A stretch of DNA of 46,776 bases from Actinomycetes bacterium (GCA_024644345.1 JAHELE010000008.1:1-46776), one strand, 5' to 3'. Positions 3,009-15,806 are shown, counted from the first letter of the stretch. Made by a program: numbers and translations. Notes: a model not told the origin generated them from the letters alone.

Positions 3009-4661
3009 ATGGCGGATGCAGATGTGGTCTTTGTCGGCGGTCGGGTCTTCAGCGGGCAGGGGCGCCCCCCGGAACAGGCAGCGGTGGCGGTTCAGGGCGG
3101 CCGGATTGTTGCAGTGGGGTCTGACGACGACGTCCGGGCGCTGGTCGGTCCGAGCACCGAGGTGGTTGGTATCGACGGTGGACTGCTCACACCGGGCTTT
3201 CAGGATGCCCACGTGCATCCGGTCTACGGCGGCACCCAGATGTCGCAGTGCGACCTGCACGACATCGTGACCTCCGACGAGAGCGTCGCGGCCGTGGCCG
3301 GCTACGCGGCTGCCAACCCTGACCTCCCGTGGGTGCTCGGTGGCGGATGGTCCATGGAGGCGTTCCCCGGGGGAACGCCGACCAAAGAGCTCCTCGACGC
3401 CGTGGTACCAGACCGCCCGGTCTTCCTGCCGAACCGAGACGGACACAGCGGCTGGGTGAACTCTGCGGCGCTGGCCGTAGCCGGGATAACGCGGGACACC
3501 CCAGAACCCGGCGATGGGCGGATCGAGCGGAACTCCGAGGGCGAGCCGACCGGCTGCTTGCACGAAGGCGCGATGGCCCTGGTCAGCCACCTGGTCCCGC
3601 CACCGACCGATGCCGACTACGACCGCGCGCTCGACGTTGCTCAGCAGTACCTGTTCTCGCTCGGCATCACCGGGTGGCAGGACGCCATTGTGGGTGAGGT
3701 GAACGGACGTCCCGACAACCTCCAGGCCTACATGCGCGGCGACGCCGACGGCCGGCTGAAGGCGCGCGTCGTCGGAGCGCTGTGGTGGGATCGCGCGCGT
3801 GGCCTTGAGCAGGTACCCGAGCACGTCACCCGTCGCCGGGAGGGTACGGGCACGCGCTTTCGCGCCACCAGCATCAAGATCATGCAGGACGGCGTTGCTG
3901 AGAACTTCACGGGAGCCATGACGTCCCCCTACCTGGACGCGTGTGGCTGCCAGACGGCAAATGCTGGCCTCTCCTTCGTCGACCCTGCTGTGCTTCGGGA
4001 GGCCGTCGTCGCACTCGATGCCGAGGGTTTCCAGGTGCACTTCCACGTGATCGGCGACCGGGCAGCCCGCGAGGCACTCGACAGCATCGAGGCGGCGCGC
4101 AAGGCCAACGGCATGAACGACCTGCGTCATCATCTCGCGCACATCCAAGTCATCCATCCCGACGACATCCCTCGGTTCGCTGCGCTCGCGGTCGGTGCCA
4201 ACATGCAGCCGCTGTGGGCGTGTCACGAGCCGCAGATGGACGAGCTGACCATTCCCTACCTCGGAGAACCTCGATGGCGGTGGCAGTACCCGTTCGGTGC
4301 CCTTGAACGGGCCGGCGCACGACTGGTCGGTGGGAGCGACTGGTCGGTGAGTAGCCCTGACGTGCTCTGGGGGTCGCACGTGGCCGTCACCCGCAGGCCG
4401 CCACCCGACGGTGACGACCACTCCGCGAAGGAGCCGTTTCTGCCCGAGCAGGCAATCACCCTCGAGTCAGCGCTCACCGCGTACACGCAGGGATCGGCAT
4501 GGGTCAACCACCTCGACGACGTCGCCGGAACCGTTGAGGTCGGGAAGTACGCCGATCTCACCCTGCTCGATCGCGACCCGTTTGCTGGCGATCCCAACGA
4601 CATCGGCACCACCAAGGTCGCCCAGACATTCATCGAAGGCGAACGGGTCTTCGCCAGGTAG
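3009..4661 (+). CDS. YtcJ-like metal-dependent amidohydrolase
   Basis: A 550-residue amidohydrolase-superfamily protein, the usual length of the YtcJ/N-substituted formamide deformylase-like group. Metal-site features are DAHVHP (about residue 67), HFHVIGD (about 345), HLAHIQ (about 372) and GSDWSVSSPD near 440. It probably hydrolyses a C-N bond in a small cyclic or acyl amide; the substrate cannot be told from sequence. The ATG at 3009 has no clear Shine-Dalgarno sequence. It is divergent from the tetR-pump operon and ends exactly where the convergent Nudix gene ends (4661/4662), so no terminator separates them. Confidence 0.88.
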   Translation: MADADVVFVGGRVFSGQGRPPEQAAVAVQGGRIVAVGSDDDVRALVGPSTEVVGIDGGLLTPGFQDAHVHPVYGGTQMSQCDLHDIVTSDESVAAVAGYAAANPDLPWVLGGGWSMEAFPGGTPTKELLDAVVPDRPVFLPNRDGHSGWVNSAALAVAGITRDTPEPGDGRIERNSEGEPTGCLHEGAMALVSHLVPPPTDADYDRALDVAQQYLFSLGITGWQDAIVGEVNGRPDNLQAYMRGDADGRLKARVVGALWWDRARGLEQVPEHVTRRREGTGTRFRATSIKIMQDGVAENFTGAMTSPYLDACGCQTANAGLSFVDPAVLREAVVALDAEGFQVHFHVIGDRAAREALDSIEAARKANGMNDLRHHLAHIQVIHPDDIPRFAALAVGANMQPLWACHEPQMDELTIPYLGEPRWRWQYPFGALERAGARLVGGSDWSVSSPDVLWGSHVAVTRRPPPDGDDHSAKEPFLPEQAITLESALTAYTQGSAWVNHLDDVAGTVEVGKYADLTLLDRDPFAGDPNDIGTTKVAQTFIEGERVFAR

Positions 4662-5602: not shown

Positions 5603-6193
5603 TCAAGTGAGCAGCTCGCGCTCGACGACCCCGCGTAGCGCCGCCCTCAGCCGCCACCGGTTCTCGAGTGAGGGCTGCAGCAGCACCTGCAGTCCGAGCC
5701 CGTCGAACAGGCCGGCGAAGCGCAAAGCGAAGTCGGCCGGGTCGATATCGAGTGAGAACTGCCCCTGCCGTTGCCCATTGCGCACGATGGTGTCGATCAT
5801 CCCCACCCAGCGTGTGTAGATCTCGTGGTTGCGGGCTCGCAGCTCGTCTCGTCGGCGCGCCTCGTTCCAGAACTCCAACCAGATCGACCACTCGTCAGCC
5901 ACGTCGGCGTCCGGAATCTGCAGGTCGATCAGCCGGAGCAGCTGCTCGCGTGGTTCGCTGAGGGCCACCAGCTCGGCGCGGTGGCGTGCGTGCGAGCGTT
6001 CGGACGCGTGCTGCAGCGCGGCGTCCAGCACGTCGACCTTGGTGGGGAAGTAGTAGTGCACGGTTCCGGTGCTGGTGCCGGCCCGTTTGGCGATGTCGGA
6101 GACGCGCGCCGAGGCGTAGCCGCGCTCCACCACGACGGCCACCGCCGCGTCGAGGATCGCCCGACGGCGGTCGTCTTCGGAGGCTGCGGCCAT
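5603..6193 (-). CDS. TetR-family repressor, divergent from the acyl-CoA catabolic operon
   Basis: A 196-residue regulator. The helix-turn-helix covers about residues 10-55 (ILDAAVAVVVERGYASARVSDIAKRAG, then TGTVHYYFPTKVDVLDAAL). The C-terminal half resembles BetI-like ligand domains (WLEFWNEARR). The ORF track begins at 6202, but a TAGAAT -10 box covers 6201-6206, leaving exactly seven bases before the ATG at 6193. I therefore call a leaderless start there. Its own operator lies between -35 and -10. It should repress itself and the divergent six-gene operon, probably with an acyl-CoA as inducer, as known for several TetR regulators of acyl-CoA dehydrogenase genes. Confidence 0.88.
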   Translation of the reverse strand: MAAASEDDRRRAILDAAVAVVVERGYASARVSDIAKRAGTSTGTVHYYFPTKVDVLDAALQHASERSHARHRAELVALSEPREQLLRLIDLQIPDADVADEWSIWLEFWNEARRRDELRARNHEIYTRWVGMIDTIVRNGQRQGQFSLDIDPADFALRFAGLFDGLGLQVLLQPSLENRWRLRAALRGVVERELLT

Positions 6194-6200
6194 GACCGAC

Positions 6201-6230
6201 ATTCTAACTGACTCGTCAGTTGAACCTCAA
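6201..6230 (-). promoter_or_regulatory. Promoter of the tetR gene at 5603-6193
   Basis: Minus strand: -35 TTGAGG (6230-6225), 18-base spacer, -10 TAGAAT (6206-6201). The -10 lies seven bases from the ATG at 6193, which fits a leaderless transcript. The spacer holds the operator palindrome. Confidence 0.75.
6206..6221. promoter_or_regulatory. TetR operator 1
   Basis: Perfect inverted repeat AACTGAC-TC-GTCAGTT, located between the -35 and -10 boxes of the tetR promoter. The core TGAC-N2-GTCA is shared with operator 2, 62 bases away. Confidence 0.85.
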
Positions 6231-6334: not shown

Positions 6335-7525
6335 ATGCTGCGCGACCTGCCGACCGAACTGCTGCCACTCACCGACGAGCAGCAGGCGATCGTCGAGCTC
6401 ACCCGCTCGTTCGCCGAGCGTGAGATCCGGCCGATCGCCCGCGAGGTCGATGAGGCCGACATCGAGACCCCCTGGGGGATCTGGCGCAAGGCCGCCGAGA
6501 TCGGACTGACCGGCTTCATGCTCCCCGAGGAGTACGGCGGTGGCGGCTTCACCGACACCTTCAGCCAGTGCCTGGTGCAGGAAGAGCTCTGCGCCGGCGA
6601 CCCGGGGATCGGCAACCTGGTCGCCTCCAACGGGTTCTTCGCCCACCCCGTCATGGAGCTCGGGACACCGGAGCAGAAGGAGCGCTGGCTGACGCCACTG
6701 GCCCGGACGGACACTCCGATGACGTCTTTGGCCGTCACCGAGCCCGAGGTGGGATCAGACTCTGCGGCGATGACCACAAAGGCGGTACGCGTCGACGGTG
6801 GGTACCGACTCACCGGGCAGAAGACCTGGATCAGCAACGGTGGGTCGGCTGACTTCTACGTCGTCTTCGCCAAGACCGACCCAAGCCTGCGCTCGAAGGG
6901 TGTCACCGCCTTCATGATGCGCAAGGGCGTCGACGGTCTCACCTTCGGCAAGCCGATGAGGAAGATGGGGCAGCGTGCACTCGTCAACACCGAGCTCTTC
7001 CTCGATGACGTCTTCGTTCCCGATGAGGACCGACTGGGCGATGAGGGTCAGGGTTTCTACGGGCTGATGCACACCTTCGATGCCTCGCGCGCCATCCTGG
7101 GGGCGGCCGCCACCGGGGCCGCGCGGGCGGCGACAGAGTACGCGCTGGAGTACGCCCAGCAGCGCAGCCAGTTCGGCAAGCCCATCATCGAGCACCAGGC
7201 CGTGGCGTTCCGGCTGGCCGACATGGCAACCCGGGTCGAGACAGCGCGGCTGTTGGTCTGGAGAGCCGCCAAGCGCCTGGACGCCGGGCTCGACTCCGCA
7301 GCGATCTGCGCCCAGGCCAAGCTCGTGGCGTCAGAGGCAGCGATGTTCTGCACCTGGGGGGCTGTCCAGACGCTCGGTGGGTGGGGATACTCACGCGAGT
7401 TCCTGGTGGAGAAGTGGATGCGCGACGCCAAGCTCGAGGAGATCGAAGAAGGAACCTCAGACATTCAGCGACTCATCATCTCTCGCAGGCTCGCTGCCTC
7501 GCCGACGATCGGAGCACTGTCATGA
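6335..7525 (+). CDS. Acyl-CoA dehydrogenase (first of two in the operon)
   Basis: A 396-residue FAD-dependent enzyme of the SCAD/glutaryl-type fold that introduces an alpha,beta double bond into an acyl-CoA. Visible features are the FAD/substrate motif VTEPEVGSD (about residue 135), a C-terminal FAD-binding stretch QTLGGWGYSREFLVEKW, and EEGTSDIQRLI with the likely catalytic Glu. The ATG at 6335 is preceded by GGAGG; the ORF-track GTG at 6308 overlaps the -10 box and is rejected. It is the first gene of the operon and overlaps the next gene by four bases (ATGA). Substrate unknown; the context suggests a branched or unsaturated acyl-CoA. Confidence 0.92.
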   Translation: MLRDLPTELLPLTDEQQAIVELTRSFAEREIRPIAREVDEADIETPWGIWRKAAEIGLTGFMLPEEYGGGGFTDTFSQCLVQEELCAGDPGIGNLVASNGFFAHPVMELGTPEQKERWLTPLARTDTPMTSLAVTEPEVGSDSAAMTTKAVRVDGGYRLTGQKTWISNGGSADFYVVFAKTDPSLRSKGVTAFMMRKGVDGLTFGKPMRKMGQRALVNTELFLDDVFVPDEDRLGDEGQGFYGLMHTFDASRAILGAAATGAARAATEYALEYAQQRSQFGKPIIEHQAVAFRLADMATRVETARLLVWRAAKRLDAGLDSAAICAQAKLVASEAAMFCTWGAVQTLGGWGYSREFLVEKWMRDAKLEEIEEGTSDIQRLIISRRLAASPTIGALS

Positions 7526-8343
7526 CACAGAGCCTCAGTACGAGTGCCGTCGACCCGCAGCAATTCGCAGGTCAGGTGGCGATCGTCACCGGGGGTGGGA
7601 GCGGGATCGGACTGGGCATCGCTCACCGGCTGGCCGCCGGTGGCGCGCGCCTTGCGCTCATCGGCCGCAACCCAGACAAGCTGGCCAAGGCGGCGTCGGA
7701 GATCACCGCCGAGAGGATCACGACGCACTCACTCGATGTCCGCGACCACGAGGCCGTCGAGCTCGCTTTCAGTGCCATCGCCGACGAGTTCGGCGGTGTT
7801 CACATGCTGGTGAACAACGCCGCGGGCAACTTCGTCGTCCCCGCGGAGGAGATGAGTCCCAACGGTTTCAAGGCCGTGGTCGACATTGTGCTCAACGGCA
7901 GCTTCTACTGCTCACGAGCGTTTGCGCGCATCGTCAAGGAGCAGGACACCGGAGGCTCGATCCTCAACGTGATTGCCACCTATGCATGGACTGGGCACCC
8001 GGGCGTGGTGCACAGCGCCGCCGCAAAGGCAGGGGTTCAGGCCATGACCCGGACGCTTGCGGTCGAGTGGGCCAGGTTCGGGATCAGAATCAACTGCATC
8101 GCTCCTGGTCCGACCGAGACCGAGGGTGCTGGTGCTGCCCTGTGGCCAACTGAGCAAGACCGGATCAGCCTCACCAACTCCGTCCCGCTCAAGCGCTTCA
8201 CGACACCGGAAGAAGTCGCGACATCGGCTGCGTACCTTCTCTCGGACGACGCGGCCTATGTCACTGGCGACACGCTCGTTGTCGATGGCGGCCAGTGGCT
8301 CGGCAAGCAGGTGTACGGCTTCTCGGCCTCACCGTCATGGTGA
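7522..8343 (+). CDS. SDR oxidoreductase, 2,4-dienoyl-CoA reductase-like
   Basis: A 273-residue short-chain dehydrogenase. The cofactor motif TGGGSGIGLG sits near residues 22-31 and NNAAG near 98-102. The usual YxxxK is replaced by HSAAAK, while a Tyr occurs earlier in ATYAWTG. The same Tyr...Ser-x3-Lys spacing is known in mitochondrial 2,4-dienoyl-CoA reductase, so I place it in the DECR/FadH-like SDR group. It would reduce an unsaturated acyl-CoA with NADPH. The start at 7522 overlaps the previous stop; the ORF-track extension to 7381 is out-of-frame coding of the previous gene. Translation is probably coupled. Confidence 0.85.
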   Translation: MTQSLSTSAVDPQQFAGQVAIVTGGGSGIGLGIAHRLAAGGARLALIGRNPDKLAKAASEITAERITTHSLDVRDHEAVELAFSAIADEFGGVHMLVNNAAGNFVVPAEEMSPNGFKAVVDIVLNGSFYCSRAFARIVKEQDTGGSILNVIATYAWTGHPGVVHSAAAKAGVQAMTRTLAVEWARFGIRINCIAPGPTETEGAGAALWPTEQDRISLTNSVPLKRFTTPEEVATSAAYLLSDDAAYVTGDTLVVDGGQWLGKQVYGFSASPSW

Positions 8344-9974
8344 CCGCATCGACCCGTCTCACTGATGTGACGGGGGGCGAGGTGGTGGTGGCTGCGCTTG
8401 CTGCGCACGACGTGCGTGTGGTCTTCGGCATCCCTGGCACGCACAACTTGTCGGTCTTTGACGCGCTGACCCGCTACGGCATCCGAACCGTCGCGACCAC
8501 CCACGAGCAAGGGGCGGGCTACGCCGCCGACGGCTACGCACGCACATCCGGGCGTCCAGGTGTGGCGGTGGTCACCAGTGGCCCGGCGGTGTACAACGCA
8601 GCGACCGCGGTGGCGCAGGCCTACTCCGACTCCATCCCGATGTTGTTGGTCAGCCCCGGCATGCCGCGCACGTTGCCGACCGGTGGGCCCGGCTCGGGTT
8701 ACCTGCATGAGGCGAAGGACCAGTCCGGCGCCATGGACCGAATCGCCGCGCGATGCATCACGCCGACGACTCACCAGCAGATTGCTGACGCCGTGGCCGA
8801 GGCCTTCACGTTCTTCAACGCTGGACGTCCACGCCCGATTCACCTCGAAGTGCCTCTCGACCTGCTTGACGAGGTCGGCGAAGCACACCTGGTCAGGGCA
8901 GAGCCCCGGCCGAGTCTGGCGGCCGCACCGGGCGATATCGAGAAGGCGGTGCAGCTTCTCGCGTCTGCTGCACGACCGATGATCATCGCCGGTGGAGGCG
9001 CCAATCGTTCCGGAGCCGAGCTGTTGGCCGTAGCGGAGTCCCTCGGTGCCCCCATCGCCACGACCATCAACGGGACGGGTGCCATCGACAGCGATCACCC
9101 GCTGTCGCTGGGTGCGCGCTTGGGTACGCCGTCGGTCGTCGCCGCGGCCGACGATGCGGACGTGCTTCTCGTGGTGGGCGCGGAGCTCGGAAACTCCGAC
9201 ATGTGGCAGGGAATGTTGGCACCTCGCGGTCACGTCGTCCGTGTCGACATCGACGTGGAGATGGCGGCGGTGAACATCGAAGCCGACACGATGCTGGTGG
9301 GCGACGCCTTGACCGTCCTGTCGCAGATGCAGAGTGCTCTCGCTGAACGCGGCCACGACGCTCGAGGCACCTCACCCCGTGTCGAAGAGCTTCGATCGGC
9401 TGCCGTTGCCGAGGCGTCCGCCGCTGGTGCGCGCTGGCGTCCGTGGATCGATGCGATCGACGTCGGACGCGGGCCGGATGCCGTGGTCGTCACCGACAAC
9501 GCCATGTCGGTCTACTTCGGCACGATTGGTGTGCTGCCGATGCATCGGGCGGGCAGCTTTCACTTTCCGACCGGCTTCGGCACCCTCGGGTTCACCGTCC
9601 CGGTCGCGGTGGGCTCTGCGCTCGCAGCACCCGACCGCCAGATCGTGGGGATCAGCGGGGACGGCGGGTTGCTGTTCACCGCCACCGAGCTCGCGGTCGC
9701 TGCCGCGGAGCAGCTTGCGATGGCCATCGTCGTCTTCGACAACAGCGGCTACGGAGAGATCAGGGCCGAGATGCTCGAGCGGGACGAGAAGCCGACGGCA
9801 GTCGACGCACCGCCACGCGACCTTGTGCTGCTCGCTCAGGCTCTCGGTGCCCGGGGTTTGCGGGTCGACTCGCCCCACCAGCTGGTCGAAGAGCTACGTC
9901 GCTCGGCGTCCTACCCGGGTCCGTCGGTCCTGGTCGTCTCCGAACCTGCTCCTCCGGAAGGATCACCGCGGTGA
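8337..9974 (+). CDS. ThDP-dependent enzyme, acetolactate synthase / 2-ketoacid decarboxylase-like
   Basis: A 545-residue enzyme with the three-domain POX/AHAS layout. The N-terminal Pyr domain has GIPGTHN and the catalytic Glu in THEQGAGYAADGYAR (Glu57). A middle Rossmann-like domain includes IIAGGGANRSGAELL. The C-terminal PP domain has the ThDP motif from GDGG (about 439) to DNSGYGE (about 470). It is probably not the biosynthetic AHAS: no small subunit is adjacent and the neighbours are catabolic. Members such as AruI decarboxylate amino-acid-derived 2-oxo acids, which fits the dehydrogenase next door. ATG at 8337 overlaps the SDR stop by seven bases; GTG at 8340 is an alternative. Confidence 0.85.
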   Translation: MVTASTRLTDVTGGEVVVAALAAHDVRVVFGIPGTHNLSVFDALTRYGIRTVATTHEQGAGYAADGYARTSGRPGVAVVTSGPAVYNAATAVAQAYSDSIPMLLVSPGMPRTLPTGGPGSGYLHEAKDQSGAMDRIAARCITPTTHQQIADAVAEAFTFFNAGRPRPIHLEVPLDLLDEVGEAHLVRAEPRPSLAAAPGDIEKAVQLLASAARPMIIAGGGANRSGAELLAVAESLGAPIATTINGTGAIDSDHPLSLGARLGTPSVVAAADDADVLLVVGAELGNSDMWQGMLAPRGHVVRVDIDVEMAAVNIEADTMLVGDALTVLSQMQSALAERGHDARGTSPRVEELRSAAVAEASAAGARWRPWIDAIDVGRGPDAVVVTDNAMSVYFGTIGVLPMHRAGSFHFPTGFGTLGFTVPVAVGSALAAPDRQIVGISGDGGLLFTATELAVAAAEQLAMAIVVFDNSGYGEIRAEMLERDEKPTAVDAPPRDLVLLAQALGARGLRVDSPHQLVEELRRSASYPGPSVLVVSEPAPPEGSPR

Positions 9975-11179
9975 GCGCACACCACTCCTACCTCGAGCTG
10001 ACCTGGACCGACGAGGTCACGGGCATCAAGGGCTACGTCGTGATCGACACCCTGAGCCGCGGTGTAGCCGGTGGGGGCCTCCGCATGCGTGATGGCGTCA
10101 CCTTGGACGAGGTGCGCGACCTCGCACAGGCGATGACCCTGAAAGAGGCAGTCGTCTACTCGCCGGGGGATCGGTACATCCCGCTCGGCGGTGCGAAGGG
10201 TGGCATCGACTGTGACCCCTACGACCCGAGGTCCCGTGAGGTGCTCGGTCGGTTCGGCCGGGCCATGAAGCCGCTGATCGAGGCGCTCTTCGCCACGGGA
10301 GAAGACTTCGGCGTTCGCCAGGACGTGATCGACGAGGTCTTCGCCGAGGAAGGCATCCGCTCGTCGGCCGAGTCGGCTCTCGCCCTGGTCGACGACGGAG
10401 CCGATGCCGCATACGAGCGGCTCAAGGCGGCCTTCTCCCAGTCAGTCGACGGGATCGGCCTCGGTGAGCTGGTCGGCGGCTACGGCGTCGCTGAGACCGC
10501 GCTTGCGGCGCTGGCGTTCCGAGGTTGCGACATCCGCTCCTCAACCGCCGTCATCCAGGGGTTCGGCTCGATGGGAGGCGCGACGGCGCGCTACCTCGCG
10601 GCCGCAGGCGTGCGGGTTGTCGGCATCTCAGACCGCGAGGGGTTCGTCTACAACCCACGCGGTCTTGACGTCGAGCAGCTGCTGGCCACCCGCGATGTGT
10701 TCGGGGTCATCGACCGGTCTGTTCTCAGGGCAGACGACGAGATTCGCCCGGCTGATGACTGGATCGGCATCGAGACGGACGTCCTCGTTCCGGCTGCCAT
10801 GTCGTACGTCATTGACTCCGGCAACGTGGGTCAGGTGCGCGCCGGCGTCATCTGTGAGGCGGCGAACGTGGCGACCCTCCCGGACGCTGAGGCCGAGCTC
10901 GGTAGGCGCGGCGTGACGATCGTCCCTGACTTCGTGGCCAACGTCGGAACGAACGCGTGGTGGTGGTGGATCGCGTTCGCCGACATCGAGCCGAGTGCGG
11001 ACAGCTCCTTCGCCAAGATCAGCAGCGTTCTGCGCCCCCTCACCCGCGAGCTGCTCGAACGGGCCCGTCGAGATGGGGTCTCGTCCCGTGAGGCTGCCAA
11101 GCTGATCTCAGAGGAGAAGCGTGCTCTCGTGGCCGAGCACTACCCCACCTCGGTCAAGTCAGCCGCGGTGGTGCGCTGA
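9971..11179 (+). CDS. Glu/Leu/Phe/Val dehydrogenase family amino-acid dehydrogenase
   Basis: A 402-residue NAD(P)-dependent oxidative deaminase. The N-terminal domain has the substrate and catalytic lysines in MTLKEA and PLGGAKGGIDCDP (about residues 55-80). The C-terminal nucleotide domain has the dinucleotide motif QGFGSMGG (about 196-203), CEAANVATLPDAE, and FVANVGTNAWWWW. It should convert an L-amino acid to a 2-oxo acid and ammonia. GTG at 9971 overlaps the ThDP enzyme stop (GTGA). The ORF-track version from 9443 includes a long wrong-frame extension. Adjacency to the ThDP enzyme suggests the 2-oxo acid is handed on for decarboxylation; this is inference. Confidence 0.88.
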   Translation: MSAHHSYLELTWTDEVTGIKGYVVIDTLSRGVAGGGLRMRDGVTLDEVRDLAQAMTLKEAVVYSPGDRYIPLGGAKGGIDCDPYDPRSREVLGRFGRAMKPLIEALFATGEDFGVRQDVIDEVFAEEGIRSSAESALALVDDGADAAYERLKAAFSQSVDGIGLGELVGGYGVAETALAALAFRGCDIRSSTAVIQGFGSMGGATARYLAAAGVRVVGISDREGFVYNPRGLDVEQLLATRDVFGVIDRSVLRADDEIRPADDWIGIETDVLVPAAMSYVIDSGNVGQVRAGVICEAANVATLPDAEAELGRRGVTIVPDFVANVGTNAWWWWIAFADIEPSADSSFAKISSVLRPLTRELLERARRDGVSSREAAKLISEEKRALVAEHYPTSVKSAAVVR

Positions 11180-13278
11180 TGTCGACATCGGGCGATGCCG
11201 ATCGACTCATCGAACGGCATGCCGCGCTGGAGGCTCTGTTCGCTCCCACGAGCGTTGCCGTGATCGGAGCGAGTGACGACATCCGCAAGTGGGGCAACTG
11301 GCTGGCCAAGGGGGCGCTGGCCGGACCGGTACCGGTCCATCTCGTCAATGCCAGGGCGGATGTCGTGCTGGGCCTGCCGGCAGTGCCTTCTCTGGTCGGG
11401 GCGGGGCTGAGCGCAGACCTTGCCGTCGTCGCCGTACCCGCGGCGGCCTTCGAGTCAGCCGTCGACGACGCCTTGGCGGCCGGCGCCAGAGCCATCGTGG
11501 GCATCAGCGCTGGGCTTGGCGAGTCGGGTGCTGAGGGGCAGGCCCGCGAGCGCGCGGTGGTCGAGCGTGTACGCGCGGCCGGCGCAGTGCTTCTGGGGCC
11601 GAACTGCTTGGGGGTGTTCGACGCCTCGTCCGGACTGTCCTTGACGTCCAACCCGCTGCCGCTCGGTGATGTCGCGTTCATCTCGCAGAGTGGAAATCTT
11701 TCGCTCGAGCTGGCGCAGCTGCTGTCCGACCACGGCCTCGGGTTCTCCCGGTTCGCCAGCTTGGGCAACCAGGCCCACCTGGATGCCGCTGATCTCGTCG
11801 AGGCGAGCGCTTCCCATGACGGCACCGACGTCATCGCGGTCTACTGCGAAGACTTCCGCGACGGCCGACGCTTCGCGCAGGTGGCACTGGACGCCCGGCG
11901 CCGCGGCAAGTCGGTCGTCCTGCTGACGGTCGGCGCGAGTGAGGCGTCGGCTCGGCAGGCGTCCTCGCACACGGCGTCATTGGTGTCCCCGTCCGACGTG
12001 GTGGATGCCGCCTGCGCGGCCGGTGGGATCGTGCGCGTGAACACGCCCTCGCAGATGGCCGACGCGATTGCGTTGCTTCGCAAGAACCCGGCCGCCTCCG
12101 GCCGGCGAGTTGCGATCATCACCGATGGAGGGGGACACGCGTCGATCGCCGCCGACGTCGCCGAGTCCGTAGACCTCGAGGTTGTGCACTTCTCGGCTGG
12201 TCTGGCGTCGACGGTGGCGGCCGAGCTTCCCGCTGCCGCTACCAGCGTGAACCCGATCGACGTGGCAGGTGGCGGGGAGCAGGATCTCTCGTGCTTCGGC
12301 AGGATCACCTCGTCGGTCCTGGCCAGCGGCGAGGTGGACGCCATGGTGGTCAGTGGCTACTTCGGTGGCTACGGACAGTACGGTCCGGCGCTGGCCGAGC
12401 TGGAGGTGCAGACCGCGACCGCCCTCGCGGCGGCCGTGGGTGCGCACGGCCGGCCCTTGCTGGTGCACTCGATGTTTCCGCAGAGCCCGGCGGCGACAGA
12501 GCTCCGTGCACACGGGGTGCCGGTCTACCGGACGATCGAGGGCGCCATCGGCGCGCTCAGCGAGACCGCGGGCGTCGGCCCTGCCACCCTCGAGCCGCTC
12601 CCCGATCCAGAGCCGCCGCTGGAGGGTTTCGGCTACTGGGAGGTCCGGTCAGCGTTGATGGATGCCGGCGTGGCGTTCCCCGAGGCCCATCTCGTGTCGA
12701 CACTTGATGAGTTCGAGCGTGTGGTGCCGGTTGTGACGTACCCGGTGGTGCTCAAGGCCATGGGTCTGCTGCACAAGACCGACGTCGGCGGCGTCCGGCT
12801 GGGGATCGCTGACGCCGATGAGCTGCGCGCTGAGTACGGCGCGATGGTCGAGCGGTTGGCTCCACCGGCGGTCACCATCGAGCAGATGGTCGACACGGGG
12901 GCTGGGGTTGAGCTGATCGTCGGCGTGCGACGTGATGAGAGGTTCGGGCCGGTCGCGATGGTTGGTGGTGGGGGGATCCTCACCGAGGTGCTCGACGATG
13001 TCGCCACGTCCCTGGCGCCGATGGATGCCGACAGGGCGCTGCAGCTGCTGACGTCCCTGCGGTCGTCGGCCCTGCTCCATGGTGTCCGCGGCCGACCTGC
13101 GGTCGACCTGCAGGCGGTCGCTGAGCAAGTGGCCGCGATCACTCGCTTCGCCTCCGCCCACCCCGAGATCAAAGACTTCGAGGTCAACCCACTGCTCGCT
13201 ACCGCGAATGGTGCGGTAGCGCTCGATGCACGAGCGATCGCCATCGGCGACGTCGACCATCACATCAAGGAGACATAG
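11179..13278 (+). CDS. ADP-forming acyl-CoA synthetase (acetate-CoA ligase family)
   Basis: A 699-residue fused alpha-beta protein. Order of parts: CoA-binding domain (SVAVIGASDD near residue 20), succinyl-CoA-ligase-like domains (FISQSGNLSLELAQLL near 165; ITDGGGHASIAAD near 315), and an ATP-grasp beta domain from about 480 (YPVVLKAMGLLHKTDVGGV, EVNPLL near 675). Such enzymes interconvert acyl-CoA plus ADP and acid plus ATP, so it could activate an acid or harvest ATP from the pathway's end product. The start shares one base with the previous stop (TGATG). There is no GNAT domain, so it is not a Pat-type acetyltransferase. Confidence 0.88.
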   Translation: MSTSGDADRLIERHAALEALFAPTSVAVIGASDDIRKWGNWLAKGALAGPVPVHLVNARADVVLGLPAVPSLVGAGLSADLAVVAVPAAAFESAVDDALAAGARAIVGISAGLGESGAEGQARERAVVERVRAAGAVLLGPNCLGVFDASSGLSLTSNPLPLGDVAFISQSGNLSLELAQLLSDHGLGFSRFASLGNQAHLDAADLVEASASHDGTDVIAVYCEDFRDGRRFAQVALDARRRGKSVVLLTVGASEASARQASSHTASLVSPSDVVDAACAAGGIVRVNTPSQMADAIALLRKNPAASGRRVAIITDGGGHASIAADVAESVDLEVVHFSAGLASTVAAELPAAATSVNPIDVAGGGEQDLSCFGRITSSVLASGEVDAMVVSGYFGGYGQYGPALAELEVQTATALAAAVGAHGRPLLVHSMFPQSPAATELRAHGVPVYRTIEGAIGALSETAGVGPATLEPLPDPEPPLEGFGYWEVRSALMDAGVAFPEAHLVSTLDEFERVVPVVTYPVVLKAMGLLHKTDVGGVRLGIADADELRAEYGAMVERLAPPAVTIEQMVDTGAGVELIVGVRRDERFGPVAMVGGGGILTEVLDDVATSLAPMDADRALQLLTSLRSSALLHGVRGRPAVDLQAVAEQVAAITRFASAHPEIKDFEVNPLLATANGAVALDARAIAIGDVDHHIKET

Positions 13279-13284
13279 CCGGTC

Positions 13285-14463
13285 ATGGACTTCAGCTACA
13301 CCCCTGAGCAGCAGCACCTGATGGCTCGGGTTCGTGAGCTCGCCACCTTCATCGAGCCATTTGAGCTCGAGTGTGAGATGAACAACGGGCTCACAGACCA
13401 GGCGCACACATCGATCCGCCAAGCTGTGCTCGACGCTGGCCTGCAGGCGGTCAACATGCCCAAGGAGTGGGGCGGTGCCGGGCTCAGCACCATGGAGCAG
13501 ATCCTGTACCACGAGGGTCTGGGTCGGTTGACGAACGCACTGTGGGACACGGTGTGGCGGCCGGCCAATGCGCTGAAGGCGTGCACGCCTGAACAGCGTG
13601 AGCGATACCTGCTGCCAGGCATCCGCGGCGAACGACGAGACGCCATCGCCGTCACCGAGGAGCACGCCGGCTCCGACCCGCTGGCCATGACCACCACCGC
13701 CAAACGCGAGGGTGATCGCTACGTGATCAACGGTGAGAAGTGGTTCGTCACCGTCGGAGACGTGGCTGACTTCATCCTGACGTTGGCCTGGGTGGATGAC
13801 CGGCCGACGCTCTTTATCGTCGATCGCGACACGCCGGGGCTATCGGTCAAACGCACTCCCAAGTACACCCACACATTTGTGTACGAACACCCCGAGTTCG
13901 TCTACGACAACGTCGAGGTGGGCCAGGGGCAGATCCTGGGCGAGATCGGTCAGGGCTACGACCTGATCCGCGACTGGTTCGTCGAAGAGCGACTGATGAT
14001 CGGGGCGCGGACGGTAGGAGCGGCCACCCGCGCGATCGAGGAGTCAGTCGACTTCGCCACCGGTCGTATCCAGGGCGGTGGTCCGTTGGTCACGCACCAG
14101 CTGATCCAGGCGATGCTGGCCGACATGATCGTCGACACCACCGGTGCCCGCACGCTGGTCTACCAGGTGGGCTGCGAGATCGACGCGGGTCAGCTCGACC
14201 GCAAGACCCTGCACGCCAAGGCCGCGGTCGTGAAGCTGGCCGCGTCCGAGGCAGCAGGTCGGGTGGTCGACCGAGCCGTCCAGATCCACGGAGGGCGCGG
14301 CTACATGCGCGACTTCGCCGTCGAGCGCCTGTACCGCGAGCTGCGGGTCGACCGTGTGTGGGAGGGCACCTCTGAGATCCAGCGCCTGATCATCGGCAAC
14401 GAGATCGCCAAGCGAGGAGTCGCCGGACTGCTGACGTTCCCCAGCCAGGAGCCCGCCGCCTGA
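13285..14463 (+). CDS. Acyl-CoA dehydrogenase (second of the operon)
   Basis: A 392-residue FAD enzyme. Visible marks are the N-terminal YTPEQQHLMARVRELA helix, VTEEHAGSDPLAM near residue 130, IHGGRGYMRDFAVERLYRE near 335, and VWEGTSEIQRLIIG with the catalytic Glu near 360. It is clearly divergent from the first dehydrogenase in the operon, so the two probably act on different acyl-CoAs rather than being redundant copies. ATG at 13285 follows AAGGAGA and lies six bases after the previous stop. It is the last gene of the unit, convergent with the thioesterase gene seven bases away. Confidence 0.9.
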   Translation: MDFSYTPEQQHLMARVRELATFIEPFELECEMNNGLTDQAHTSIRQAVLDAGLQAVNMPKEWGGAGLSTMEQILYHEGLGRLTNALWDTVWRPANALKACTPEQRERYLLPGIRGERRDAIAVTEEHAGSDPLAMTTTAKREGDRYVINGEKWFVTVGDVADFILTLAWVDDRPTLFIVDRDTPGLSVKRTPKYTHTFVYEHPEFVYDNVEVGQGQILGEIGQGYDLIRDWFVEERLMIGARTVGAATRAIEESVDFATGRIQGGGPLVTHQLIQAMLADMIVDTTGARTLVYQVGCEIDAGQLDRKTLHAKAAVVKLAASEAAGRVVDRAVQIHGGRGYMRDFAVERLYRELRVDRVWEGTSEIQRLIIGNEIAKRGVAGLLTFPSQEPAA

Positions 14464-14470
14464 CCTGGGC

Positions 14471-14884
14471 TCAGAAGGCGATGCCGGCGGCTTCGTCGGC
14501 TTCGAGCGCGCCTTCGATCAGCGCGATCTCGTCAGTGGTGAGTGGACGCGAGCGGCCAGTGGCGGTGTCGCGGGGGACTACGACGGCCCCGCCCTCGGCG
14601 GCCAGTGACCCGTCCGGCTTCAGGACGACCTCACGACTGCGGACACTTGACCTGCCGAAGCCCACCACGCGACTGCGGACCGTCACCTCGCCGTCGTCCT
14701 GGGTCACCTCGTTGCGGAAGTCGATGTCGACATGGGCAAGGACGAAGTCGAGTGCTTCGGGGCCGAACAGCGCGACCATGACGTTGTCGCGTGCCTCTTC
14801 GAAGTAGTTGAGGTAAACGGCGTTGTTCACGTGCTGGTAGGCGTCCATGTCTGCCCACCGCACCCGAATAGTGACCTGTTCCAT
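14471..14884 (-). CDS. Acyl-CoA thioesterase, 4-hydroxybenzoyl-CoA thioesterase (hot-dog) family
   Basis: A 137-residue single hot-dog protein, the usual size. The active-site motif appears as WADMDAYQHVNNAVYLNYFEEAR (about residues 10-32) with Asp14, His18 and Asn20. It hydrolyses an acyl-CoA thioester in the cytosol. I start at ATG 14884 (upstream AAGG); the 29-residue ORF-track extension overlaps the upstream methyltransferase gene. It follows that gene by ten bases on the same strand and is probably cotranscribed with it. It is convergent with the catabolic operon, so a joint role with it is possible but not shown. Confidence 0.88.
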   Translation of the reverse strand: MEQVTIRVRWADMDAYQHVNNAVYLNYFEEARDNVMVALFGPEALDFVLAHVDIDFRNEVTQDDGEVTVRSRVVGFGRSSVRSREVVLKPDGSLAAEGGAVVVPRDTATGRSRPLTTDEIALIEGALEADEAAGIAF

Positions 14885-14894
14885 CCGGGTGACC

Positions 14895-15806
14895 TTACTG
14901 GGCGAGCTGTACAGCCATCGCCGAGATGTCGCTGGGGGTGACCCGACAGCAGCCCCCGACCAGACGAGCACCTTCGGCGGTCCAGCGGCCGACGGGGAAG
15001 ACCGCAGCGGACTCTGCGCTCACCCACGCGCGGTTGGCGGCGTCCCATCCCTCACCGCTGTTTGGGTAGATCACCACGGGCTTGCCCGACAGCGCTGCCG
15101 TCGCTACCGCCTCGGTGGCGTCGCTGGGTGTGGAGCAGTTGACCCCGAACGCGAACACCTCGTCGACATCGTTGACCATGGTGGCGATGTCGACCAGAGG
15201 CTCACCTGATCTCGTGCGTGATCCTTCGATCGACACCGACACCCAGGAGTCGATTCCCGTGCCGTCGATCTCTGTCAGCACGGCCTCGACCTCGTACGCG
15301 TTCGGCAAGGTCTCGAAGGCCAGGACGTCGGCCCCGGCACTGGCCAAGATCTCGAGTCTGGGACGGTGGAAGTCCCTCAGCTCGCCGACGCTGAGCCCGT
15401 ACCGGCCGTGATACTCCGAGCCATCGGCGAGCATGGCCCCATAGGGGCCGAGCGAGGCGGCCACCCAGGTGGGGCGGCCGGACACCTCGGTTGCGGCTTC
15501 GCGGGCCAGGGACACACCTCTGCGCATGAGCTCGACGGTGTCTGCTCGCTCGATTCCGTGCGCCGCGAACCCGTCGAACGTTGCTTGGTAGGTCGCGGTC
15601 GTTGCCACCTCTGCTCCGGCAGCGAAGAAGGCGCGATGCGCGTCCACGATCGCAGCAGGTTGGTCGATCAGCATCTGTGCTGACCACAGATCACCGGAGA
15701 TGTCGTGACCGAGCAGCTCAAGCGTCGTGGCGAGCCCACCGTCGATCAGAACGGGGCGACGCATGAGCGTCTGTCTCAGCGACGTGGCCGGTACGAGGGA
15801 GGACAT
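14895..15806 (-). CDS. mmuM: Homocysteine S-methyltransferase family protein
   Basis: A 303-residue (beta/alpha)8 methyltransferase of the MmuM/Hcy-binding type. LIDGGLATTLE lies near residue 19, TATYQAT near 69, and the zinc cysteines are in GVNCS (about 223) and VGGCCRV (about 286). It moves a methyl group from S-methylmethionine or S-adenosylmethionine to homocysteine, giving methionine. The family is known to act without cobalamin or folate. I choose ATG 15806; a longer start at 15887 adds a low-complexity, Arg-rich tail that overlaps the upstream gene. I see no SAM riboswitch in the 40-base gap upstream. Confidence 0.85.
   Translation of the reverse strand: MSSLVPATSLRQTLMRRPVLIDGGLATTLELLGHDISGDLWSAQMLIDQPAAIVDAHRAFFAAGAEVATTATYQATFDGFAAHGIERADTVELMRRGVSLAREAATEVSGRPTWVAASLGPYGAMLADGSEYHGRYGLSVGELRDFHRPRLEILASAGADVLAFETLPNAYEVEAVLTEIDGTGIDSWVSVSIEGSRTRSGEPLVDIATMVNDVDEVFAFGVNCSTPSDATEAVATAALSGKPVVIYPNSGEGWDAANRAWVSAESAAVFPVGRWTAEGARLVGGCCRVTPSDISAMAVQLAQ

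Follow-up and report, generated by a model that had tools for sequence, protein, structure and literature searches.

The window examined here is a 46,776-nt stretch of DNA within contig C9 of a 2.9 Mb metagenome-assembled genome (MAG; 93% complete). Among named relatives, Actinomycetes MAGs are the closest to this genome. At positions 6335-14463 the window carries six tightly packed plus-strand genes, which compose a real, conserved and presumably functional catabolic operon. A preliminary description of this DNA had proposed six packed genes in a single transcription unit. This is supported, and its coordinates, overlaps and families are upheld by the gene calls and by the Pfam and NCBIfam profiles with which families were assigned. 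The genes and the adjoining regulatory features are as follows.

5603-6202, minus strand: TetR-family regulator with a BetI-type C-terminal domain, divergent from the operon
6208-6219, no strand: palindrome CTGACTCGTCAG, putative TetR operator 1, kept in sister locus L027
6284-6295, no strand: palindrome CTGACGCGTCAG, putative TetR operator 2, kept in L027
6335-7525, plus strand: ACAD1, acyl-CoA dehydrogenase, core gene, with LEE-[IL]-EEGTSD at the catalytic base
7522-8343, plus strand: short-chain dehydrogenase/reductase (SDR) of the 2,4-dienoyl-CoA reductase type, with S-x-x-x-K replacing Y-x-x-x-K, and NNAAGNF
8337-9974, plus strand: thiamine diphosphate (ThDP) enzyme, AruI-like (PRK07524 subfamily), 450.6 bits with a cut-off of 500
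9971-11179, plus strand: AADH, Glu/Leu/Phe/Val fold, presumably an NAD(P)-dependent amino-acid dehydrogenase, member of the TNAWWWW clade
11179-13278, plus strand: ACD, NDP-forming acyl-CoA synthetase whose alpha and beta parts are fused
13285-14463, plus strand: ACAD2, another acyl-CoA dehydrogenase, accompanying the core in the window's genus alone

In gene order the overlaps are 4, 7, 4 and 1 bases, and 6 bases separate ACD from ACAD2. The second value depends on the start chosen for the ThDP gene, since ATG at 8337 gives a 7-base overlap with the SDR gene and GTG at 8340 a 4-base one. The start codon of the AADH gene is GTG.

Conservation and regulation of the operon

The neighbourhoods of AADH and ThDP genes were gathered from searches over more than 1000 genomes. 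ACAD1, ACD, the ThDP enzyme and AADH occur together in 25 distinct genomes, including that of the window, from at least six families and two classes. This count derives from 25 four-gene loci, of which L039 and L151 are apparently one assembly, plus genome G658, in which the cluster is divided between L100 and L169. Among the carriers are Nanopelagicales-type MAGs, Nocardioidaceae, members of family f17 (apparently Pseudonocardiaceae), a genome from outside the class (G267) and two Streptomyces plasmids. The possibility, raised earlier, that the genes are not kept together in relatives is contradicted by this shared core. Of the co-occurrence envisaged for all six families, the four-gene part stands and ACAD2 falls outside the conserved set. 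An SDR orthologue is present in seven loci including the window's, with about 60% identity outside the genus.

In a tree of 78 AADH sequences, every ThDP-linked AADH falls in one 67-member clade marked by the W-rich motif TNAWWWW, with ten rows and one outgroup row outside it. The Streptomyces-like loci L044-L050, L105-L106 and L109-L114 hold a chromosomal AADH of this clade, usually without ThDP, ACAD1 or ACD genes; in several of them AADH adjoins a metallo-beta-lactamase-like gene, a TetR gene and a GDSL lipase gene. In the f17 clusters L163, L164, L165, L166 and L168, the ThDP match is split in two pieces, and the middle of the protein is possibly divergent.

The 132-base gap between the TetR gene and ACAD1 holds two copies of CTGACNNGTCAG, at 6208 and 6284. 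No other copy occurs in the window, where 0.07 would be expected, and two copies were reached in none of 100 shuffles. Since such a pair is rare by chance and both palindromes are retained in L027, control of the operon by TetR is likely. The TetR proteins of sister clusters are 39-42% identical to the window's; the distant clusters mostly lack even the looser TGACNNGTCA, and no shared TetR operator was found in these distant relatives.

Active-site features of the encoded enzymes

The best model for the ThDP enzyme is PRK07524, 5-guanidino-2-oxopentanoate decarboxylase, and two orthologues exceed its cut-off (533.7 bits in L097 and 528.6 bits in L071). Three TPP_enzyme domains, the catalytic Glu (HEQGAG) and the GDG...N cofactor motif are all present. 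A GYGEI stretch is nearly invariant across 59 ThDP-related sequences; because it also occurs in AruI-like proteins unlinked to AADH (L067 and L068), it is a feature of the subfamily. We take this stretch to be the substrate pocket that reads TYGALRWF in benzoylformate decarboxylase, a position in which its acidic residues would suit a basic side chain. We assign the enzyme to the AruI (2-ketoarginine decarboxylase) type.

The window operon lacks an aldehyde dehydrogenase (ALDH), from which the preliminary description had reasoned that the ThDP enzyme may carry out another reaction. We rejected this argument because sister operons do encode ALDH: the gene adjoins ThDP or AADH in L071, L150 and L100/L169, and the window's own genome has 14 ALDH matches. 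No ALDH would be needed if the enzyme cleaved a 2-hydroxyacyl-CoA or joined an acyl anion derived from a 2-oxo acid to some acceptor, and acetolactate synthases and 2-hydroxyacyl-CoA lyases are among the solved relatives at comparable scores. Nevertheless, the top family model is an aldehyde-forming decarboxylase and ALDH is both clustered in relatives and abundant in the genome, and we regard such non-decarboxylase chemistry as quite improbable.

AADH has the ELFV N and C domains of Pfam and the glutamate dehydrogenase (GDH) fold. The predicted model has a mean predicted local distance difference test score of 90.8; among solved structures, the closest folds to it are those of glutamate dehydrogenases, not of leucine or phenylalanine dehydrogenases. 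It resembles the hexameric GDHs in fold (template modelling score about 0.65-0.78 to many of them) and in retaining the catalytic Lys and Asp motifs. In the alignment, however, GPAKGG of GDH becomes GVAGGG, so that the Lys that binds the side-chain carboxylate is replaced by Gly; there is also an insertion before GGAKGG, and the pocket helix is the W-rich TNAWWWW. A distant relative (35%) in L055 of genome G128 (7444-10933) is flanked by L-piperidine-6-carboxylate dehydrogenase and a DAO-type oxidase, which suggests a lysine or 2-aminoadipate role for that branch.

ACAD1 comprises N, middle and C domains, with the catalytic Glu at the EGTS position. The motif KLEE[IL]EEGTSD does not vary across 27 sequences, and an acidic cluster thereby surrounds the catalytic Glu. 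The preceding residue is Glu in ACAD1, G, G, Y, V and W in paralogues of the same genome, and W in ACAD2. It corresponds to Tyr375 of medium-chain acyl-CoA dehydrogenase, adjoining the acyl chain. ACD contains CoA-binding, Succ_CoA_lig and ATP-grasp_5 domains. Another acyl-CoA dehydrogenase and NDP-forming CoA synthetase pair, similar to ACAD2 and ACD, lies on contig C97 of the same genome (L079, 4199-7383).

In the SDR, Ser-x-x-x-Lys replaces Tyr-x-x-x-Lys, and NNAAGNF and the active-site Tyr are kept, as in mitochondrial 2,4-dienoyl-CoA reductase (alignments to 1w6u and 7ucw). These residues, conserved in six other loci, bear out the earlier call of a dienoyl-CoA-reductase-like SDR; the NCBIfam score is 306.7 against a cut-off of 318. 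Given the Ser-x-x-x-Lys and NNAAGNF motifs, the SDR is unlikely to be a hydroxyacyl-CoA dehydrogenase.

Partner genes in sister clusters

Several sister clusters are larger than the window operon. In L071, a GABA/polyamine-type ABC transporter, ACAD1, ACD, SDR, ThDP, AADH, ALDH, a 2-hydroxyacid dehydrogenase, EamA and TetR stand together, and L150 holds TetR, a GABA/polyamine-type transporter, ACAD1, ACD, SDR, ThDP, AADH, ALDH and EamA. The cluster of L169 and L100, from one genome, includes a transporter, ACAD1, ACD, SDR, ThDP, ALDH, a 2-hydroxyacid dehydrogenase and EamA, together with TetR, a Lys/Arg/Orn-type ABC transporter, dimethylargininase and AADH. L039 contains TetR, a Lys/Arg/Orn-type ABC transporter, dimethylargininase, ACAD1, ACD, ThDP, AADH and EamA; here dimethylargininase immediately precedes ACAD1, beside the Lys/Arg/Orn-type binding protein. 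The dimethylargininases of L039 and L100 score 376.1 and 374.5 bits, above the cut-off of 340.

The nearest solved structures to the GABA/polyamine-type binding protein near ACAD1 are 4eq7, deposited as polyamine-binding, and a GABA-sensor protein. For the ALDH of the sister operons (L071, L150 and L100/L169), the top-scoring model is aminobutyraldehyde dehydrogenase. The two Streptomyces plasmids carry ACAD1, a ThDP enzyme annotated as 5-guanidino-2-oxopentanoate decarboxylase, SDR and ACD, with a SolA-like oxidase and AADH running divergently. In family f17 an amidohydrolase belongs to the cluster, and the nearest solved structure to its Streptomyces-plasmid relative is the L-arginine carboxypeptidase Cc2672 (3mtw). 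GabT adjoins ThDP-AADH in freshwater MAGs, and in L031, where it lies beside these genes, an aminobutyraldehyde dehydrogenase is found 6 kb away; GabT is a possible member of the cluster. The DXR, RseP and IspG genes adjoining some clusters were set aside as housekeeping.

Within the window, an amidohydrolase-like gene (3009-4661, 550 aa; no NCBIfam match) adjoins NUDIX and TetR genes, an arrangement kept in L027. Downstream of the operon, the gene next to ACAD2 is 4HBT thioesterase-like and lies on the opposite strand (14471-14971). Elsewhere in the genome, a polyamine/GABA island (C103:44000-82000; L075 and L076) contains a Pot-like ABC transporter, two aminobutyraldehyde dehydrogenases, an agmatinase-like gene, GabT, a CoA-acylating semialdehyde dehydrogenase and a carboxynorspermidine-synthase-like gene.

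Substrate and proposed route

The AruI-type decarboxylase, the dimethylargininase, the Lys/Arg/Orn- and GABA-type binding proteins of the transporters, the Arg-carboxypeptidase-type hydrolase and the acidic ACAD1 site favor a basic substrate, and disfavor the branched, aromatic and alicyclic amino acids named in the preliminary description. Degradation of the latter via decarboxylation, CoA activation and dehydrogenation would be in keeping with the Glu/Leu/Phe/Val dehydrogenase fold of AADH and with the distant similarity of ACAD1 to cyclohexane-1-carbonyl-CoA dehydrogenase models. However, glutamate dehydrogenases are the nearest solved structures to AADH, and ACAD1 has the EEGTS motif, which we take to be the canonical base, unlike the shifted base of isovaleryl-CoA dehydrogenase. 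With partners and acidic motifs also pointing to a basic substrate, we consider these amino acids highly improbable.

We therefore lean, with about even confidence, towards a basic amino acid as the predicted substrate, most likely one of guanidino type: arginine itself, or a relative that is methylated or resembles citrulline. The dimethylargininase of L039 and L100 argues for the guanidino group, and the three ureohydrolases and the polyamine/GABA island of the window's genome may be counted for a basic substrate as well. The same applies to the Gly at the substrate-lysine position and the W-rich pocket stretch of AADH, the GYGEI stretch of the ThDP enzyme, the ALDH of the sister operons, and the GabT and aminobutyraldehyde dehydrogenase genes of L031.

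What was observed are the gene families with their order and conservation, the partner genes and the motifs of the active sites; from these we infer the following reactions and substrate. AADH would oxidatively deaminate an arginine-like amino acid to its 2-oxo acid (e.g. 2-ketoarginine), which the AruI-like enzyme would decarboxylate to an omega-guanidino (or ureido) aldehyde. An ALDH, operonic in relatives, would oxidize the aldehyde to the acid (e.g. 4-guanidinobutyrate); for the window it is plausibly supplied from elsewhere in the genome, including the two aminobutyraldehyde-dehydrogenase-type genes of C103. ACD would then activate the acid to its CoA ester, converting one ATP to ADP, and ACAD1 would desaturate the ester to a 2-enoyl-CoA. 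The SDR, joined by ACAD2 in the window's genus, may handle later CoA steps, and the part after ACAD1 is the least certain. This scheme supports the order of deamination, decarboxylation and CoA processing proposed earlier.

In its upper half this route follows known chemistry, although the enzyme of the first step is unusual. In the arginine oxidase/dehydrogenase pathway, 2-ketoarginine is converted to 4-guanidinobutyrate (PMC2242806). The arginine transaminase and oxidase/dehydrogenase pathways of P. aeruginosa (AruH-AruI-KauB-GbuA), P. putida and cyanobacteria similarly proceed from the amino acid to the 2-oxo acid and, by AruI-type decarboxylation, to the omega-guanidino aldehyde and acid. 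In the operon, by contrast, a Glu/Leu/Phe/Val-type dehydrogenase takes the place of the transaminase or flavin oxidase at the first step, and the acid is apparently CoA-activated and dehydrogenated. In the known pathways a ureohydrolase, guanidinobutyrase, comes after the decarboxylase. No ureohydrolase was found in the clusters tested: queries with two of the three ureohydrolases encoded elsewhere in the window's genome gave no match in the 25 loci L146-L170. The preliminary description knew of no described pathway with this set; for the CoA-dependent lower half, no match to one was found in the open-access literature searched. In the same literature, guanidinobutyryl-CoA appears mainly in polyketide starter-unit work, with no catabolic pathway found, and no described pathway was found that links these enzymes to methylarginine, homoarginine, trimethyllysine or butyrobetaine. 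Gamma-butyrobetaine is degraded via CoA esters by aldehyde dehydrogenase, CoA synthetase and acyl-CoA dehydrogenase. That route resembles the operon in that a 4-substituted butyrate arises from an aldehyde and is CoA-activated and then desaturated, and the operon differs from it in the amino-acid start, the NDP-forming synthetase and the absence of a linked hydratase.

Several observations weigh against a guanidino substrate or the complete scheme. The window's ThDP enzyme lies under the PRK07524 cut-off. Dimethylargininase linkage is limited to two genomes of one family (L039 and L100), and the window's genome has only weakly similar proteins. Many Streptomyces-like chromosomes carry a WWWW-clade AADH without the other genes, so that either the partnership has been lost there or the role of AADH differs. 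Enoyl-CoA hydratase was sought in nine genomes and none was within a cluster, so that a full beta-oxidation would be conjectural. The characterized AruI-like enzyme IlvB1 of S. meliloti acts on basic 2-oxo acids and is promiscuous, with a sevenfold preference for ornithine-derived 5-amino-2-oxopentanoate (PMC7268258). The AruI label accordingly leaves the substrate unfixed: a basic amino acid is probable, and arginine is not certain. Finally, it is not obvious what a dienoyl-CoA-reductase-type SDR would do with a C4 guanidino acid; such an SDR fits a C5 (lysine-type) acid better.

A lysine-type (C6) substrate, i.e. lysine, N6-methylated lysine or homoarginine, would give such a C5 omega-substituted acid. 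ACAD1 would form the 2-enoyl-CoA, elimination of the omega group would yield 2,4-pentadienoyl-CoA, and reduction by the SDR would lead into ordinary beta-oxidation, which accounts for the dienoyl-CoA reductase residues. Pentadienoyl-CoA is involved in the 5-aminovalerate route of Clostridium viride. This fermentation, in which 5-aminovalerate passes via 5-hydroxyvalerate to homocrotonyl-CoA and for which a 5-hydroxyvaleryl-CoA dehydratase is cited, serves as the analogy (PMC8473912). A dienoyl-CoA step would explain an SDR beside an acyl-CoA dehydrogenase; the comparison concerns the logic alone, as C. viride is an anaerobe, and neither an amino-acid dehydrogenase nor a ThDP enzyme is known in its route. 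The Lys/Arg/Orn-type binding protein and the Arg-carboxypeptidase type could serve lysine too, GabT could serve 5-aminovalerate, and the distant AADH has the lysine-related neighbors described above. On the other hand, lysine-type substrates leave no role for dimethylargininase, most core clusters lack the SDR, and the decarboxylase subfamily is named after the arginine-derived 2-oxo acid. We consider a lysine-type substrate rather unlikely.

Returning to the guanidino substrate, we tentatively raise the possibility of a widespread actinobacterial arginine/methylarginine route, in which an arginine dehydrogenase of GDH fold, followed by an AruI-type decarboxylase, would feed a 4-guanidinobutyryl-CoA ligase and dehydrogenase, bypassing guanidinobutyrase. 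If this is true, an unrecognized route for basic amino acids would be common to Actinobacteria from freshwater MAGs through Streptomyces plasmids, perhaps covering methylated arginines freed from proteins. It would include a GDH-fold dehydrogenase acting on a basic amino acid and would give functions to vaguely labelled enzymes (Glu/Leu/Phe/Val dehydrogenase, acetate-CoA ligase family, acyl-CoA dehydrogenase). It would also explain how cells could draw on the carbon of 4-guanidinobutyrate, or of an acid like it, via CoA esters.

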